Part shown: in pieces, positions 54,045 through 62,120 of the stretch
Position numbering within the stretch: position 1 is the stretch's first letter
Layout of the letters: every line of letters starts with the position of its first letter
Origin: Salinibacter grassmerensis
GTDB taxonomy: Bacteria > Bacteroidota > Rhodothermia > Rhodothermales > Salinibacteraceae
Length of the DNA stretch: 64,000 nt
Assembly (NCBI RefSeq): GCF_947077765.1
Contig: NZ_CAMTTF010000002.1
Span: forward strand, 124,001 to 188,000
Reading direction: 5' to 3'
Translations under genes and position numbers: made by a program
The notes under the pieces: generated by a model
The model's input: only the letters and a program-made list of their open reading frames with translations
Databases searched by the model: none
What the model was told of the DNA's origin: nothing

Positions 54045-55733
54045 CTACGTCTCCCCTTCGGGGGAGGACCCGTCTGACAGTGCCTCCTCTTTTACGGTGT
54101 TGAGGCGTGCCAGTGCAGCCTCACGGTCGTCCGGCAGGTCTGGGTCCTCGAAGACGACCTCCTTGATCGCCCCCAGCGCCCGGTTCTCCGGCCCTTCGAG
54201 CCGGTCCTGCATCGCTTCGAAGAGGGCGCCGCGGCGGAGGGCCTCGTCCTTGACCGCCATGAGGTAGTCGTAGGCCGCGTCGTGCTCGTTGGGAATCTCG
54301 CCGTCGAGGATGGCCTCGCGAATCCAGGTTTTGGCGATGCCCACGGCCACCCCCTCCTCGATCCCCAGTGTCTCCATGATTTCGTACCCGTCCACCGGCG
54401 GCTCAAAGTTGCGGAGGCGGTCCTTCTCTTCTACAGCCCGCATCTTCTTCTCCACGCGGTCGAAGGCCCGCTGGTAGCGGCGGCGCCGGTCCGGGTTGTT
54501 CGAGGTTACGTCCGACCGCACCAGTGTCATGAGGTCGTCCACATCGTCCCCGGCCTCGTAGAGCAGGCGGCGCACAGCGGAGTCGGTTACCTTCTCGTCC
54601 GCCAGCGCGATGGGGCGGAGGTGCAGGCGCACGAGGGTCTGCACGTAGTCCTGCCGCTCGTCGGTCGGCAGGCGCCACTTGCGGAAGAGGTCCGGAATCA
54701 TGCGGGCGCCCACGTCCTCGTGGCCATGGAAGGTCCAGCCGTCCTCCGCGTCGAACCGCTTGGTCTTGGGCTTGGCGATGTCGTGAAGGAGGGCGGCCCA
54801 CCGGAGCCAGCGCGTCTCCGTTCCGGGCCGGTCCGACGTTCGCTCGGCGACATTGTCGAGCACCTCGAGCGTGTGGTAGAAATTGTCCTTGTGGTCGCGC
54901 CCGTTTACGACGTCGACGCCCTTGAGGCGCTGAATCTCGGGCATGAAGTGCGACAGCACGCCGGAGGCCTCCAGAATCTTGAAGCCGATGGACGGCGTCC
55001 CGGCCTCCAGCATCTTGTGGAGCTCCTCGGTGATGCGCTCCTGACTCAGGATCTCGACGCGGTGGGCCTGTGTCCCCATCGCGTCGAACACACGGTCGGA
55101 CACCCGAAATTCGAGCTGCGTGGCAAACCGGGCGGCCCGGATCATGCGGAGGGGGTCGTCCTCGAATGTATCCTCCGGGTCGAGGGGGGTCTCGATGGTC
55201 GTCCGTTCCAGGTCGCGCCGGCCGTCGAATGGATCGATGAGTTCGCCGAAGCGGTCCGGCGTGAGGTGGATGGCCATTGCGTTGACCGTAAAGTCGCGGC
55301 GGTACTGGTCGTCCTCCAGCGTGCCGGCCTCCACCTCCGGCTTCCGAGAGTCGGAGCGATAGCTCTCCTTCCGCGCGGCCACGAACTCCAGCACGAGCGC
55401 GTCGTCCGGGTGGTCGTCGGGGAGCGCGTCCTCGGCGGGGATGCGGATCGCGGCGGTGCCGAACTTGGGGTAGACGTGCGCGGTGTGGCCGCCCAGCTCG
55501 TCGCCTACCGCCTCGGCCAACGCGATGCCGGTCTCGGGCCCGACGGTCACGAAGTCGAGGTCCGTGGTGGAGCGGCCCAGGAGGACATCGCGCACCATCC
55601 CACCTACGGCGTATGCCTCAATGTCCTCTTGCTCGGCCACGCGCCCGATTGTGCGTAGGATCGACTCGTAGGGAACGTCCCGCAGCCGGTCGGACAGGGT
55701 GTGGATGTCAGCGTACGAGGAGGCCTCCGTCAT
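54045..55733 (-). CDS. cca: HD-domain tRNA nucleotidyltransferase (CCA-adding) / poly(A) polymerase family
   Basis: 562 aa from the ATG at 55733 (MTEASSYAD); the longer upstream frame is a shadow of the bactofilin region. The nucleotidyltransferase head has AYAVGGMVRDVLLGRSTTDLDFVT with the two catalytic Asp. RRDFTVNAMAI and IDPFDGRRDL follow, then the neck DDPLRMIRAARFATQLEF and RITEELHKML. An HD domain is present in ALLHDIAKPKTK (His/Asp) and FHGHEDVGARM, and the C-terminal KKMRAVEEKDRLRNFEPPVDG and MAVKDEALRRG form the tail. It adds or repairs tRNA 3'-CCA ends, or adds A tails. The HD part may act as a phosphatase or phosphodiesterase. Confidence 0.9.
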   Translation of the reverse strand: MTEASSYADIHTLSDRLRDVPYESILRTIGRVAEQEDIEAYAVGGMVRDVLLGRSTTDLDFVTVGPETGIALAEAVGDELGGHTAHVYPKFGTAAIRIPAEDALPDDHPDDALVLEFVAARKESYRSDSRKPEVEAGTLEDDQYRRDFTVNAMAIHLTPDRFGELIDPFDGRRDLERTTIETPLDPEDTFEDDPLRMIRAARFATQLEFRVSDRVFDAMGTQAHRVEILSQERITEELHKMLEAGTPSIGFKILEASGVLSHFMPEIQRLKGVDVVNGRDHKDNFYHTLEVLDNVAERTSDRPGTETRWLRWAALLHDIAKPKTKRFDAEDGWTFHGHEDVGARMIPDLFRKWRLPTDERQDYVQTLVRLHLRPIALADEKVTDSAVRRLLYEAGDDVDDLMTLVRSDVTSNNPDRRRRYQRAFDRVEKKMRAVEEKDRLRNFEPPVDGYEIMETLGIEEGVAVGIAKTWIREAILDGEIPNEHDAAYDYLMAVKDEALRRGALFEAMQDRLEGPENRALGAIKEVVFEDPDLPDDREAALARLNTVKEEALSDGSSPEGET

Positions 55734-55902: not shown

Positions 55903-56622
55903 TCACCACTCAATCGTGGAGAGGGTGTCCACGTCGTCGGTGTCCTCGGCGTCCTGGCCGTCAGGCTCGGGGGCGGACTGCTCCGCGTCCGGTGCGGCCG
56001 ACGACGAGGGCGACTCTGGAAGGCCGTCTCCTTCCTGAAGGGGGCGGACGGGTGCGGTGCCCTTCGTGGTGTTCCCGTCCGTGGTGTTCTCGGGGGAAGA
56101 CGACGGCTCAATATCGAGCGTGACGGACCGATCGGCGGCCTCGGAGGGTTGGCCCGACGAGTCGGCCGGGGGCTCGTCGGGGGAGGACGAAAGGGCAGGA
56201 ATTGCGTACGTCTCGGTCGAGAAGAAGGCCTCCTTCAAGGCCGGAATCCGATCCGCGGTATCGCACAGGCCCCCTTCGAAGTTGGCCTCGTCCTCAATCG
56301 TGAGCGCCTCGGCGCACAGGATGCCGTGCACCGATGCGGTTTCCATCACGACAAGGTCCGTCTGCGCATGCAGAACGCCCTCTGCGTCGCCGGCGATCCG
56401 AATGGAGCCGGCCTGAATTTCTCCGTGAATGGTGCCTTCCTTAGACACGTGTACGTGCCCCTCGGTGGTCACATCCCCGTCGAGCACCCCGTCGACCCGG
56501 AGGTCGTCCTCCTTCAGGTTAAACGTTCCTCGTGCGGTCGTGTCCTCTCCGAGAACCGAGAGGGCCGACGAGGGGCCGGAGGCGTCATCATCGTCGGTCG
56601 AGCGTTGAAAGAAGTCGAACAT
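55903..56622 (-). CDS. Bactofilin family cytoskeletal protein
   Basis: 239 aa. The bactofilin beta-helix core (about 20-115) has the repeat pattern ALSVLGEDTTARGTFNLKEDDLRVDGVLDGDVTT, HVSKEGTIHGEIQAGSIRIAGDAEGVL in part, and VMETASVHGILCAEALTIEDEANFEG. Bactofilins polymerise without nucleotide into filaments that guide cell shape or wall enzymes. The C-terminal 125 residues are an acidic, Ser/Pro-rich tail with no recognised domain. It lies 45 bases downstream of the actin-like gene on the same strand, so the two cytoskeletal proteins are probably made together. Confidence 0.9.
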   Translation of the reverse strand: MFDFFQRSTDDDDASGPSSALSVLGEDTTARGTFNLKEDDLRVDGVLDGDVTTEGHVHVSKEGTIHGEIQAGSIRIAGDAEGVLHAQTDLVVMETASVHGILCAEALTIEDEANFEGGLCDTADRIPALKEAFFSTETYAIPALSSSPDEPPADSSGQPSEAADRSVTLDIEPSSSPENTTDGNTTKGTAPVRPLQEGDGLPESPSSSAAPDAEQSAPEPDGQDAEDTDDVDTLSTIEW

Positions 56623-56667: not shown

Positions 56668-57696
56668 CTACGCGGGTTCTTGGTCGAACAGCGTGACGGA
56701 GGTATTGGCGTTGCCCAGATCGAGCCCGACGGCATGGTCCGGGCTCTTGCCGTTCACGCCGGCGGAGTGGAGCGCGAACCCTCGGCTCACATGCGTGGCC
56801 GGGTCCGGCACCACCTCCAGGGAAAGGACTTCCCCGAACTCATCCTCGAAGGCGTCCACGAGTTCTGTGTAGAGTGCGCCGCCCCCGGCGAGGTACATTT
56901 TGTGCGTCTGTCCGAAGTCGCTGTCGTCGAAGGCCTTCTTGAGGGACGGGGAAATGATGTCGTCGTAGTAGATGCGGAGCACCTTTTGCCGAAGCTCCGA
57001 CAGGTCGTACTGCTGGCGGCCGGCCACGACGGTGCCCCGGCGCATCGCCATGTCGATCTGGTGCTCCGTGGGCATGTTCAGGTAGTGCTTCTCCCGAAGC
57101 CGCTCGGCCATCATCGACGTGGCGTAGCGGAGCCCGTGTCCGCTCGTCGCCGTTCGCTGGACGGGGCCGGAGGGGAGGCTCAAGACAGACTCGAACGTTC
57201 CGTACCCCAACGAGACGGCAAAGAACGGGTCGTTCTCTTCGAGGTCCCCCTCGCGGGTCGCCGTCACGTGGCCCTCGATTTCCGGAAGAACCTCGACGTT
57301 CGTAATGTCCACGCCCACGACCGAGTGCTCGCCCTGTCCAAACGGGCGCCCGTCGAACTCAATTTCCTGCTCGCCCTCAATCAGGTTGCCCGCGCTCCGG
57401 CGGTGGACCCGGTACGACGAGTAGGGGAAGCCGGTCGTCAGCGTCAGGGGCGTATTGGCCCCGCCGGCCTGGGCGATCAAAAGCCCAGCTCGCAGCAACA
57501 GCCGGTAGTCGAGGTCGGAAGGACCGTTGTTGATGCCCTTGTGAGGGGCCGTCCCCTCACGGAGGGCAAGGTCCCCGACGACGTACTGCTCATCGTCGAC
57601 CTGGACCTTCAGGCCCTCGAGAAGGCCATCGGCCACGTCGACCAACTCGGTTGCGTTGGTTTCGAAGACACTCGGAAATGATTTCGTTTTCAGCAT
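56668..57696 (-). CDS. ParM/Alp-like actin-family ATPase with permuted motif order
   Basis: 342 aa from the ATG at 57696 (MLKTKSFPS); an ATG at 57738 is an alternative. Regions of the actin fold appear in the order of a ParM/Alp-type protein that has lost its first strands: KSFPSVF (strand 3), YVVGDLALRE, LTLTTGFPYS, VEVLPE, the phosphate-2 region VSLGYGTFE (161-168), the adenosine motif LAGGGALYTE (269-278), and a final helix region (DPATHVSRGFALHSAG). The phosphate-1 loop VGLDLGNANTSV (about 324-335), which normally starts such proteins, is the last element here (Asp326). No copy of that motif exists upstream of the start in any frame. The order therefore fits a circular permutation in the loop between strands 2 and 3. 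It probably polymerises with ATP. Bactofilin follows. Confidence 0.8.
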   Translation of the reverse strand: MLKTKSFPSVFETNATELVDVADGLLEGLKVQVDDEQYVVGDLALREGTAPHKGINNGPSDLDYRLLLRAGLLIAQAGGANTPLTLTTGFPYSSYRVHRRSAGNLIEGEQEIEFDGRPFGQGEHSVVGVDITNVEVLPEIEGHVTATREGDLEENDPFFAVSLGYGTFESVLSLPSGPVQRTATSGHGLRYATSMMAERLREKHYLNMPTEHQIDMAMRRGTVVAGRQQYDLSELRQKVLRIYYDDIISPSLKKAFDDSDFGQTHKMYLAGGGALYTELVDAFEDEFGEVLSLEVVPDPATHVSRGFALHSAGVNGKSPDHAVGLDLGNANTSVTLFDQEPA

Positions 57697-59769: not shown

Positions 59770-61800
59770 CTATTCGTTTGTCGCCTCTACCTGGGCTGAT
59801 TCAATCCGGTCGTAGGCGCGGAGTTGATCCACCACGTCCATCCCGTCCGTCACACGTCCGAACGCCGTGTAGCCGCCGTCCAGGTGGGGCTGCATGCTGT
59901 GCGAGACGAAGAACTGGCTGCCCTCCGTGTCTTTGCCGGCACTGGCCATGCCGATCGTGCCGCGGCGGTGGCCGATGCGCGTGGCCTCGGTACGGAGGAA
60001 GAATCCGGGCCCGCCGAAGCCGTCGCGCCGTGCAAAGTCGCCCCCCTGCACCACGAAGTTGGGCACCACGCGGTGGAACGGCACGCCGTTGTAGCGGCCC
60101 TCTCGGGCAAACTGCGTGATGGCCTGCGTCGTCTGCGGCGCCTGTTCGGCGTCAAGCTCGACCGTGACCGTGCCCCGGTCGGTCTCCAATACGAGACGCG
60201 GGTGCGGGCCGAGCTCCTGAAGGAATTCCCAGTCGATTGGGGGCGTATCGGGCAGGGGCTTCGGGGCGGCCGTCACCGTCGTGTCCGTCGCTTCGGAAAG
60301 CCCCTGCGCGGCAGCCCGGCGGACGGCATGGTGTGGGTGGTCGAGGGCGTCGCGGAGGACCGATTCGGCCGTCGTGCCGCCGAGACTGCCAAGGGCCTCC
60401 AGCGTGGCCGCCATGCCTTCCAGGTCGTCGGGCGTGGCGAGGGTGCGGTAGGTGGCCGCGAGCGTGTCGGCCGCGCCCACGGAGGCAAAAGCGGAGTCGG
60501 CGAGGGCGGGGGCGCCGTGGTAGAGGAGGGCCGGGTCGCCCCGGCGCACGGCAGCGGCCAGGCGCTCGAAGGTGATGTCCGCGCCGTCCGGTCGGGTGCG
60601 CTCCCAGCGAGACACGACGGCCTGCACCCCCGCGGCGGCCACGCGCACGTCGTCGCTGCGGAGGGCGGCCCCGATCAGCGAGTCGGCCCGGGGCGCATCG
60701 AGCGGGGCGAGGGCGGGCAGGGCCGCGGCGTAGGCGACCGGCGACCGTTCCGTGCGCCAGCGAGTGACGGTGTCGAGGACGCGCTCCGGGCGCTCGTTGC
60801 GGGCGAGGCCGCGGAGGAGGGGCGCCACCACGCGCCATTCGTTCGGATGCGCATCGAGCCAGGCCCCAATTGCGGCATTCCGGTCGGGCGACCAGTCGAG
60901 CCCGGCCAGCGTTTCGGCGGCGGTGCGTGCCACGAGGGGATGGCCGTCGTTGAGGGCACCGACGAGGGCGCTTCGTGGTTCGTCGGTGGGGGAGCCCGAA
61001 GAGAGCCCCCGGGCAGCCTCCACCCGCGTGCGCCAGTCAGGGGCCGTCCGGAGCCAATCTGCCAGGCGAGGGGCATCGGAGGAGTCGCCCGTTGTGCCCA
61101 CTGCCCGAAGCAAGTGCATGGCGGCCGGGTCGTCGGGGGCCGTGTCGTTGAGCACGGCACGGATTGTATCGGCGCGGCCGGCGGCGAGGGCTTCCACCCG
61201 CCCCAGTGCGTACGCCGCGTTGCGGCGCGTCCACGGGTCGTCGGACCGTAGGTGGTCCAGAAGCCAGGTCGTGGCGGTCGAGTCGGTCACGCCGCGCATG
61301 CCGTAGCGAGCGATCGTCAGTGCCAGGTCGGAGTGGCGAGCCGGCGGGGGGCGAAGCTGGATGAGGCTGCGCAGAGACTGAGCGTCACCCGTCGTGCCGA
61401 GCGCCTCAATGAGCCGTCGCTGCACCGAGGGATCGCGCTCGACGCTCAGCGCCCGGAGCAGCGGGGCGTCTGGCACCCCCGACGGCATCTGGCCGAGGGC
61501 GAACGCGGCGTCGGTGCGGACGAGGGGGACGCTGTCGCGCAGCAGGTCGAGGAGCCCGGGAATGGCACTGGTGTCCTGGACGGAGGCGAGGGCGAGGGCG
61601 GACCGGCCCCGCACGTCGGCGTCGTCGGCCCCGATCTTTTTGCGCAGCAGGGTGCCGTTCCGATCGACCTGTGCCTCCACGACCGCCTGCAGCGCAGGGC
61701 GCGTCAGCAGGTCGTCGGACGGACGCTCAAGCATCGGCTGGGCGGCCACGCCCGTGAGGCTCCACAGGCAAACGAGAGGGAGTACAAGCCAAGTTCTCAT
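59770..61800 (-). CDS. Exported HEAT-repeat/cyclophilin fusion (peptidyl-prolyl isomerase)
   Basis: 676 aa from the ATG at 61800, which starts the signal peptide MRTWLVLPLVCLWSLTGVAAQ; the longer open frame upstream is not needed. Residues about 25-480 consist of HEAT/PBS-like alpha-helical repeats (examples GRSALALASVQDTSAIPGLL, LVRTDAAFALGQM, WTRRNAAYALGRV, LVARTAAETLAGL). A cyclophilin domain follows at about 520-670: VELDAEQAPQTTQAITQF, FHRVVPNFVVQGGDF, SQFFVSHS and YTAFGRVTDGMDVV contain the usual catalytic Arg, Phe, Gln and His environment. It probably folds or holds client proteins outside the cytoplasm, with the repeats as a binding scaffold. Confidence 0.9.
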   Translation of the reverse strand: MRTWLVLPLVCLWSLTGVAAQPMLERPSDDLLTRPALQAVVEAQVDRNGTLLRKKIGADDADVRGRSALALASVQDTSAIPGLLDLLRDSVPLVRTDAAFALGQMPSGVPDAPLLRALSVERDPSVQRRLIEALGTTGDAQSLRSLIQLRPPPARHSDLALTIARYGMRGVTDSTATTWLLDHLRSDDPWTRRNAAYALGRVEALAAGRADTIRAVLNDTAPDDPAAMHLLRAVGTTGDSSDAPRLADWLRTAPDWRTRVEAARGLSSGSPTDEPRSALVGALNDGHPLVARTAAETLAGLDWSPDRNAAIGAWLDAHPNEWRVVAPLLRGLARNERPERVLDTVTRWRTERSPVAYAAALPALAPLDAPRADSLIGAALRSDDVRVAAAGVQAVVSRWERTRPDGADITFERLAAAVRRGDPALLYHGAPALADSAFASVGAADTLAATYRTLATPDDLEGMAATLEALGSLGGTTAESVLRDALDHPHHAVRRAAAQGLSEATDTTVTAAPKPLPDTPPIDWEFLQELGPHPRLVLETDRGTVTVELDAEQAPQTTQAITQFAREGRYNGVPFHRVVPNFVVQGGDFARRDGFGGPGFFLRTEATRIGHRRGTIGMASAGKDTEGSQFFVSHSMQPHLDGGYTAFGRVTDGMDVVDQLRAYDRIESAQVEATNE

Positions 61801-62120
61801 GGGGGGGCGGGGCAGCCGAAAGGGATAGGAAGGAGCAAAAGCGAACGACACGGCGCGTGTTCGCACCCTTCCTGCTGAGTCCTCGCATGGCTTCATGCGC
61901 ACTGCCCGACGGTCGGGTCTCCGCGATCCATTGCTGGTGCCGCCGCGGGGGAGGTGCTTCCCAACGGAAGTGCTGGGAAGACCTCTCGGGAGGGCCCAAG
62001 AGTAGATCGACTGGGGGGCAACCCGGGCAAAGGACGCCGGAGAAGTGGGAACGGCGTCCCGATTACGTCACAAAGACACTCGGAGCAAGGGGCACAGAAG
62101 TTTCCGGCGCACGATGCGAT
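61801..62120. other. 320-base stretch without a supported gene
   Basis: Between the cyclophilin start and the atpC stop. No gene, repeat or clear terminator for the ATP synthase operon was seen, though the stretch should hold one. Confidence 0.4.

Follow-up and report, generated by a model that had tools for sequence, protein, structure and literature searches.

The window, the whole stretch of Salinibacter grassmerensis DNA analysed here (64,000 nucleotides), carries on its reverse strand a gene for an actin-like protein and, directly behind it, a bactofilin gene. Their main elements are listed below in the order in which the chains are read.

56668..57696 (-): actin-like protein of 342 aa, almost certainly circularly permuted; open reading frame with ATG at 57696 and stop TAG
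57658..57696 (-): new N-terminus, residues 1-13, strand 3 (MLKTKSFPSVFET), which opens the permuted chain
57280..57282 (-): E139, the Glu of the PE motif (138-139), invariant in a 30-protein alignment and presumably where the catalytic Gln/Glu proposed for actin/ParM lies
57190..57213 (-): phosphate-2-like loop SLGYGTFE (162-169), with Ser where Asp is usual, as seen by alignment to DVGFKTTD of pCBH ParM
56878..56886 (-): GGG 271-273, adenosine motif, invariant in the 30-protein alignment
56671..56736 (-): relocated phosphate-1 beta-hairpin (strands 1-2), codons 321-342, C-terminal, HAVGLDLGNANTSVTLFDQEPA
55903..56622 (-): bactofilin (PF04519) of 239 aa, 46 bp downstream of the actin gene and presumed to be in the same operon, ending in ...TLSTIEW
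55906..55914 (-): C-terminal Ile-Glu-Trp of the bactofilin, the conserved aromatic end of linked bactofilins

The first-pass annotation of this DNA had read the motif order as strand 3, phosphate-2-like loop, GGG and DLGNANT last. It had taken this for a circular permutation, with the chain opened between strands 2 and 3, and had suggested a structural comparison with ParM, Alp7A and MreB, a search for homologues and a check for a frameshift. It had also raised the idea that filament contacts might differ in polarity. The translated open reading frame does follow this order: the FPSVFE strand (7-12), PE (138-139), SLGYGTFE (162-169), GGG (271-273) and AVGLDLGNANT (322-332), with the end at 342. 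The final element of the 342-residue chain is the phosphate-1 hairpin AVGLDLGNANTSVTLF, and AVGLDLGNANTSVTLFDQEPA forms the chain end, after GGG. To our knowledge, the phosphate-1 hairpin comes first in every actin-fold ATPase family. Residues G324, D326, G328, N329 and T332 of the C-terminal motif are invariant among 30 diverse relatives aligned. As judged from a dN/dS of 0.08-0.11 relative to two congeners, the gene is under purifying selection.

The named relative S. altiplanensis encodes a protein 93% identical to the permuted actin, and just two close relatives came out of a scan of genome contigs. The Salinibacter genome has a second copy, with 59% identity, at another locus, and separately a standard MreB on contig 9. 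The bactofilin gene is directly followed downstream by a gene for a Poly(A) polymerase/CCA-adding-type enzyme with an HD domain (54045-55730 (-)). A 710-residue protein in which HEAT repeats are fused to a cyclophilin-type prolyl isomerase is encoded at 59770-61902 (-).

Evidence for a circular permutation

Profile searches respond to the order of the chain. The native protein matches ALP_N (PF17989) with 46.9 bits (cut-off 26.3), the match beginning at profile position 16-17. Once the last 22 residues are moved to the front, ALP_N covers positions 1-145 of 148, with 56.6 bits for the full protein and 59.0 bits for the N-terminal part with the hairpin in front, as compared with 50.1-51.0 bits and starts at 9-15 in the controls, namely three shuffled versions of the hairpin and two internal segments from elsewhere in the chain. 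Two relatives (L008 and L010) have no native ALP_N match; re-ordered, they reach 50.1 and 43.3 bits over profile positions 1-147 of 148. The same is seen with phrog_691, a full-length actin-like family of PHROG: matches start at profile position 26-43 in native order and at 4-5 in restored order, three relatives gain 7-13 bits, and a shuffled control begins at 15, with 6 bits less than the real hairpin. Both profiles are thus truncated on the native chain and reach full length when the order is restored, which shuffled hairpins fail to reproduce.

The hairpin has also been considered on its own. A profile built from 29 C-terminal hairpins and run against the PDB gave only two matches, to residues 6-18 of the large subunits of the glycerol and diol dehydratase reactivases (E 0.015 and 0.25). 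We take these residues to be the N-terminal phosphate-1 loop of actin/Hsp70-fold proteins. When single hairpins were searched against Pfam, most of the weak matches fell within the first 20 positions of the FtsA, HSP70 and type III pantothenate kinase profiles; one further match was due to chance. Haloperoxidase matches in a single-sequence PDB search were rejected as spurious.

Predicted structures give a three-dimensional view of the same arrangement. An AlphaFold model computed with 12 close relatives reached a pLDDT of 73.8 and a pTM of 0.79. A second one used 32 diverse rows and a protein in which the actin was fused to the downstream bactofilin by reading through the TAG, for modelling only; its alignment was restricted to rows fused in frame, since MAFFT put stand-alone bactofilins in the wrong place along the fusion. 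For most of the actin part the pLDDT is 85-97, and the C-terminal strands 322-327 and 331-337 have block values of 93 and 87. Structural alignment by VIA-align reveals a two-domain actin fold, with Z of 20-28 over 260-300 residues to ParM, Ta0583, MreB, DnaK and actin. The scores are 27.8 for Dh-cParM1 (rmsd 3.0, 304 aligned residues, from its residue 23), 26.8 for pCBH ParM, 25.2 for CorM, 24.4 for Ta0583, 22.2 for Alp7A and 22.1 for BeeR. For chains devoid of an N-terminal extension, model residues 1 to 314-319 match the target from about residue 18-29 to its end, the start being at 21 in pCBH ParM, 19 in Ta0583, 20 in Alp7A, 23 in DnaK, 21 in MreB and 24 in actin. Strand 3 of the permuted actin (residues 1-13) accordingly corresponds to residue 18-29 in actin-fold proteins of standard order, and the first model gives the same pattern. 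Two hairpins stay unaligned, the N-terminal one of the target and the C-terminal one of the model, also in the suggested comparison with ParM, Alp7A and MreB; this is the signature of a circular permutation. In the model, residues 2-8 form a strand; because such a strand pairs only with strand 2 in the actin fold, the C-terminal hairpin is presumably in place beside it.

The permuted order extends well beyond Salinibacter. Within the order, 12 of 114 genomes encode a member of the family; the figures are 31 of 245 for the class and 24 of 395 for a sample of the phylum, in which members also turned up in three families that do not belong to the class. The search for homologues returned the same order in all 36 loci with a complete 3' end, namely in the Salinibacter gene at 56668-57696 and in 35 of 35 other relatives, from several families and classes of the phylum (locus G027, a 5' fragment cut by a contig end, was left out). 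Each protein of these 36 loci has a single phosphate-1 motif, at a distance of 16-59 residues from its C-terminal end, and no second motif was found within 300 nt upstream of the start codon. The 13 ALP_N matches obtained in the 395 phylum genomes all start at profile position 15-21, so that a standard-order member is not seen in the phylum sample.

Four independent lines (order-restored profiles, hairpin-only PDB matches, structural alignments and phylum-wide order) thus bear out the circular permutation that had been proposed, and the opening of the chain lies between strands 2 and 3, as suggested. There is hardly any doubt left that the protein encoded at 56668-57696 belongs to the ParM/Alp-like actin superfamily as a natural circular permutant. 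A natural permuted actin was not found in the open-access literature searched, absence there being no proof. The hairpin might instead be donated to a neighbouring subunit, in which case the nucleotide site would form only in a dimer or filament. Such a swap is physically possible, with a terminal hairpin and a linker of about 6-8 residues. It looks very improbable, however, since AlphaFold sets both strands in a confident single-chain fold, the edge strand 2-8 needs strand 2, and the linker is short and confidently predicted (block 311-320, pLDDT 87). A frameshift, wrong start or misassembly that cut off an N-terminal phosphate-1 segment, as the frameshift check had envisaged, found nothing in its favour and is practically ruled out by the equal order at 36 loci in genomes assembled independently, by the single motif copy with none upstream, and by purifying selection on the gene. 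The natural permutation implies that new termini inside domain IA are compatible with the actin fold, and the protein offers a natural experiment on what new termini do in filaments.

Active site and bactofilin neighbour

Two features had gone unmentioned in the initial reading, namely the loss of the phosphate-2 Asp and the bactofilin operon. The phosphate-2 loop is kept without its Asp, which is replaced by Ser, Gly or Asn in 30 of 30 aligned proteins; in the Salinibacter protein, the Ser aligns to the Asp of pCBH ParM. This position presumably corresponds to Asp154 of actin and Asp170 of ParM. Because this Asp is lost in all sequences, ATP hydrolysis is probably slow or absent. The phosphate-1 residues, Glu139 and GGG are invariant in the same 30 proteins, and nucleotide binding is thus probably kept.

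The downstream gene encodes a true bactofilin by profile (PF04519, 77.1 bits, cut-off 27.9), and the linked bactofilins score 46-80 bits. In 23 of 36 loci, which represent 14 genera, a bactofilin lies directly 3' of the permuted actin, on the same strand and at a distance of 0-272 bp; one further locus has it at 1.0 kb. The linked copies differ from other bactofilins by their C-terminal residue, which is aromatic in 23 of 24 (Trp in 20) and in none of 29 others (26 from elsewhere in the same or related genomes and 3 behind a TPR gene). The bactofilins with the aromatic end are 55903-56622 (-) in the window and those of L035, L036, L037, L040-L042, L044, L065-L067, L070, L074-L081, L090, L092 and L095. 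The corresponding Fisher p of 4e-14 counts related sequences as independent; counted by genus or paralogue group, the aromatic end is found in 14 of 15. The sole closely linked bactofilin lacking the aromatic end is L045:3222-4085, from the fragmented assembly G027. Between congeners, the bactofilin (55906-56622 (-)) is far more variable than the actin (pN 0.25 vs 0.03), yet its final Trp is kept. Each Salinibacter actin paralogue comes with a bactofilin of its own, and the trees of the two proteins split alike, which suggests that the pair was probably duplicated as a cassette.

Exceptions to this linkage are the genera g12 and g60 (9 loci), where the permuted actin has no adjacent bactofilin and the bactofilins elsewhere in the genome are devoid of the aromatic end. 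In g12 (L038, L039 and L046), the permuted actin is followed by a secreted-looking protein of about 1170 residues that carries repeats resembling a beta-propeller and closes with a sorting-like C-terminus, and another very large gene lies upstream. In three genomes of family f27 (L091, L093 and L094), a TPR-repeat gene stands between the permuted actin and a bactofilin lacking the aromatic end.

A possible actin-bactofilin cytoskeleton

The conserved operon suggests an unrecognised two-part cytoskeleton, and a functional partnership of the permuted actin with the bactofilin is likely. The C-terminal hairpin would fold back into the phosphate-1 site, and Mg-ATP would still be bound. Its hydrolysis, slow or never occurring, would make the protein a nucleotide-gated switch or a stable filament rather than a dynamic spindle. 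The partner would be the bactofilin from the next gene, whose nucleotide-independent polymer may serve as a scaffold. The disordered bactofilin tail with its C-terminal aromatic residue could then dock the permuted actin, by a logic akin to that of FtsA and the C-terminal peptide of FtsZ. The role of this assembly would lie in the spatial organisation of the cell envelope or in cell shape, not in plasmid segregation. The overall model of an ATP-binding permuted actin acting with a dedicated bactofilin, when tail docking is not insisted upon, is favoured on balance. Docking of the tail itself is a tentative proposal; the fused actin-bactofilin model predicts no ordered tail docking, the tail having a pLDDT of about 30, which is uninformative rather than negative. 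The complete picture of a phylum-wide two-component cytoskeleton, in which a hydrolysis-impaired, ATP-gated permuted actin is docked by the aromatic tail of the bactofilin, is put forward with similar reserve. Such an operon would directly link, at the genetic level, actin and bactofilin, two cytoskeletons mostly studied separately, and the proposed contact is precise enough to be testable, through the C-terminal Trp.

The permuted actin might also be a catalytically dead adaptor of the PilM/FtsA type, which never polymerises and uses a peptide groove to bind bactofilin or other envelope proteins. The phosphate-2 Asp lost in all sequences and the conserved aromatic end of the partner bactofilin are consistent with this view, which overlaps with the best explanation. 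It appears rather unlikely as such, because the top structural matches are filament formers, and the invariant phosphate-1, Glu139 and GGG residues argue for a nucleotide site that is probably still in use for binding.

A permuted ParM-type segregation ATPase still moving DNA, either the chromosome or a lost plasmid, is distinctly improbable. Its nearest solved relatives are indeed ParMs, including the chromosomal Dh-cParM1, and phrog_691 is labelled as a partition protein. However, no homologue was matched in plasmids, phages or viral contigs, no iterons or centromere-like repeats were found at the locus, and no ParR-like conserved neighbour was found at the permuted-actin loci. A role in plasmid segregation is thus unlikely on these sequence grounds, and both a plasmid or phage origin and a ParMRC-like locus were rejected. 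The conserved neighbour is instead a bactofilin, and the phosphate-2 Asp is lost.

Comparison with known systems

The best matches to the permuted actin, in structure as well as in sequence profile, are Dh-cParM1 of Desulfitobacterium hafniense (PDB 8x1i; PMC12270681) and pCBH ParM (PDB 6ixw/6izr). Dh-cParM1 is likewise chromosomal; in both, the phosphate-1 hairpin comes first, unlike in the permuted actin, and pCBH ParM keeps the phosphate-2 Asp that the permuted actin is without. No bactofilin partner is known to us for either of them. The ALP_N family, which includes Alp7A and ParM-like proteins, matches the sequence of domain IA above the Pfam cut-off, its first 15-20 or so profile positions corresponding to the C-terminus of the permuted actin. 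The ParM/Alp feature that is absent is therefore the N-terminal phosphate-1 hairpin, C-terminal in 36 of 36 loci.

A ParM-related actin fold is also present in CorM of Anabaena (PDB 9rmi) and FcmB of filamentous cyanobacteria (PMC12645912), with a different partner and in another phylum. The match to CorM starts at its residue 59, so that its hairpin precedes. BeeR (PDB 8r2n) and the three-stranded Verrucomicrobiota actin family (PMC11929497) are also bacterial actins of recent description; model residue 1 aligns at residue 59 of BeeR, which places the hairpin before the match, and BeeR is unpermuted as far as the alignment shows. For chromosomal ParMs (PMC12270681), FcmB (PMC12645912) and the Verrucomicrobiota family (PMC11929497), no description of a permutation was found. 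Among profiles of other actin-fold families, the MreB_Mbl profile stays below its cut-off in the permuted-actin family (at most 12.7 bits vs 27), the PilM profile matches weakly (10.6 bits vs a cut-off of 133), and the FtsA profile gives no match to the whole permuted actin. FtsA with the FtsZ C-terminal peptide and PilM with the PilN peptide are nevertheless instructive, being actin-fold proteins that serve a partner via a terminal peptide. Natural permutation of a nucleotide-binding fold is likewise found in the cpRAS/YlqF circularly permuted GTPases (PMC2430557), in that case within the GTPase fold and not the actin fold.
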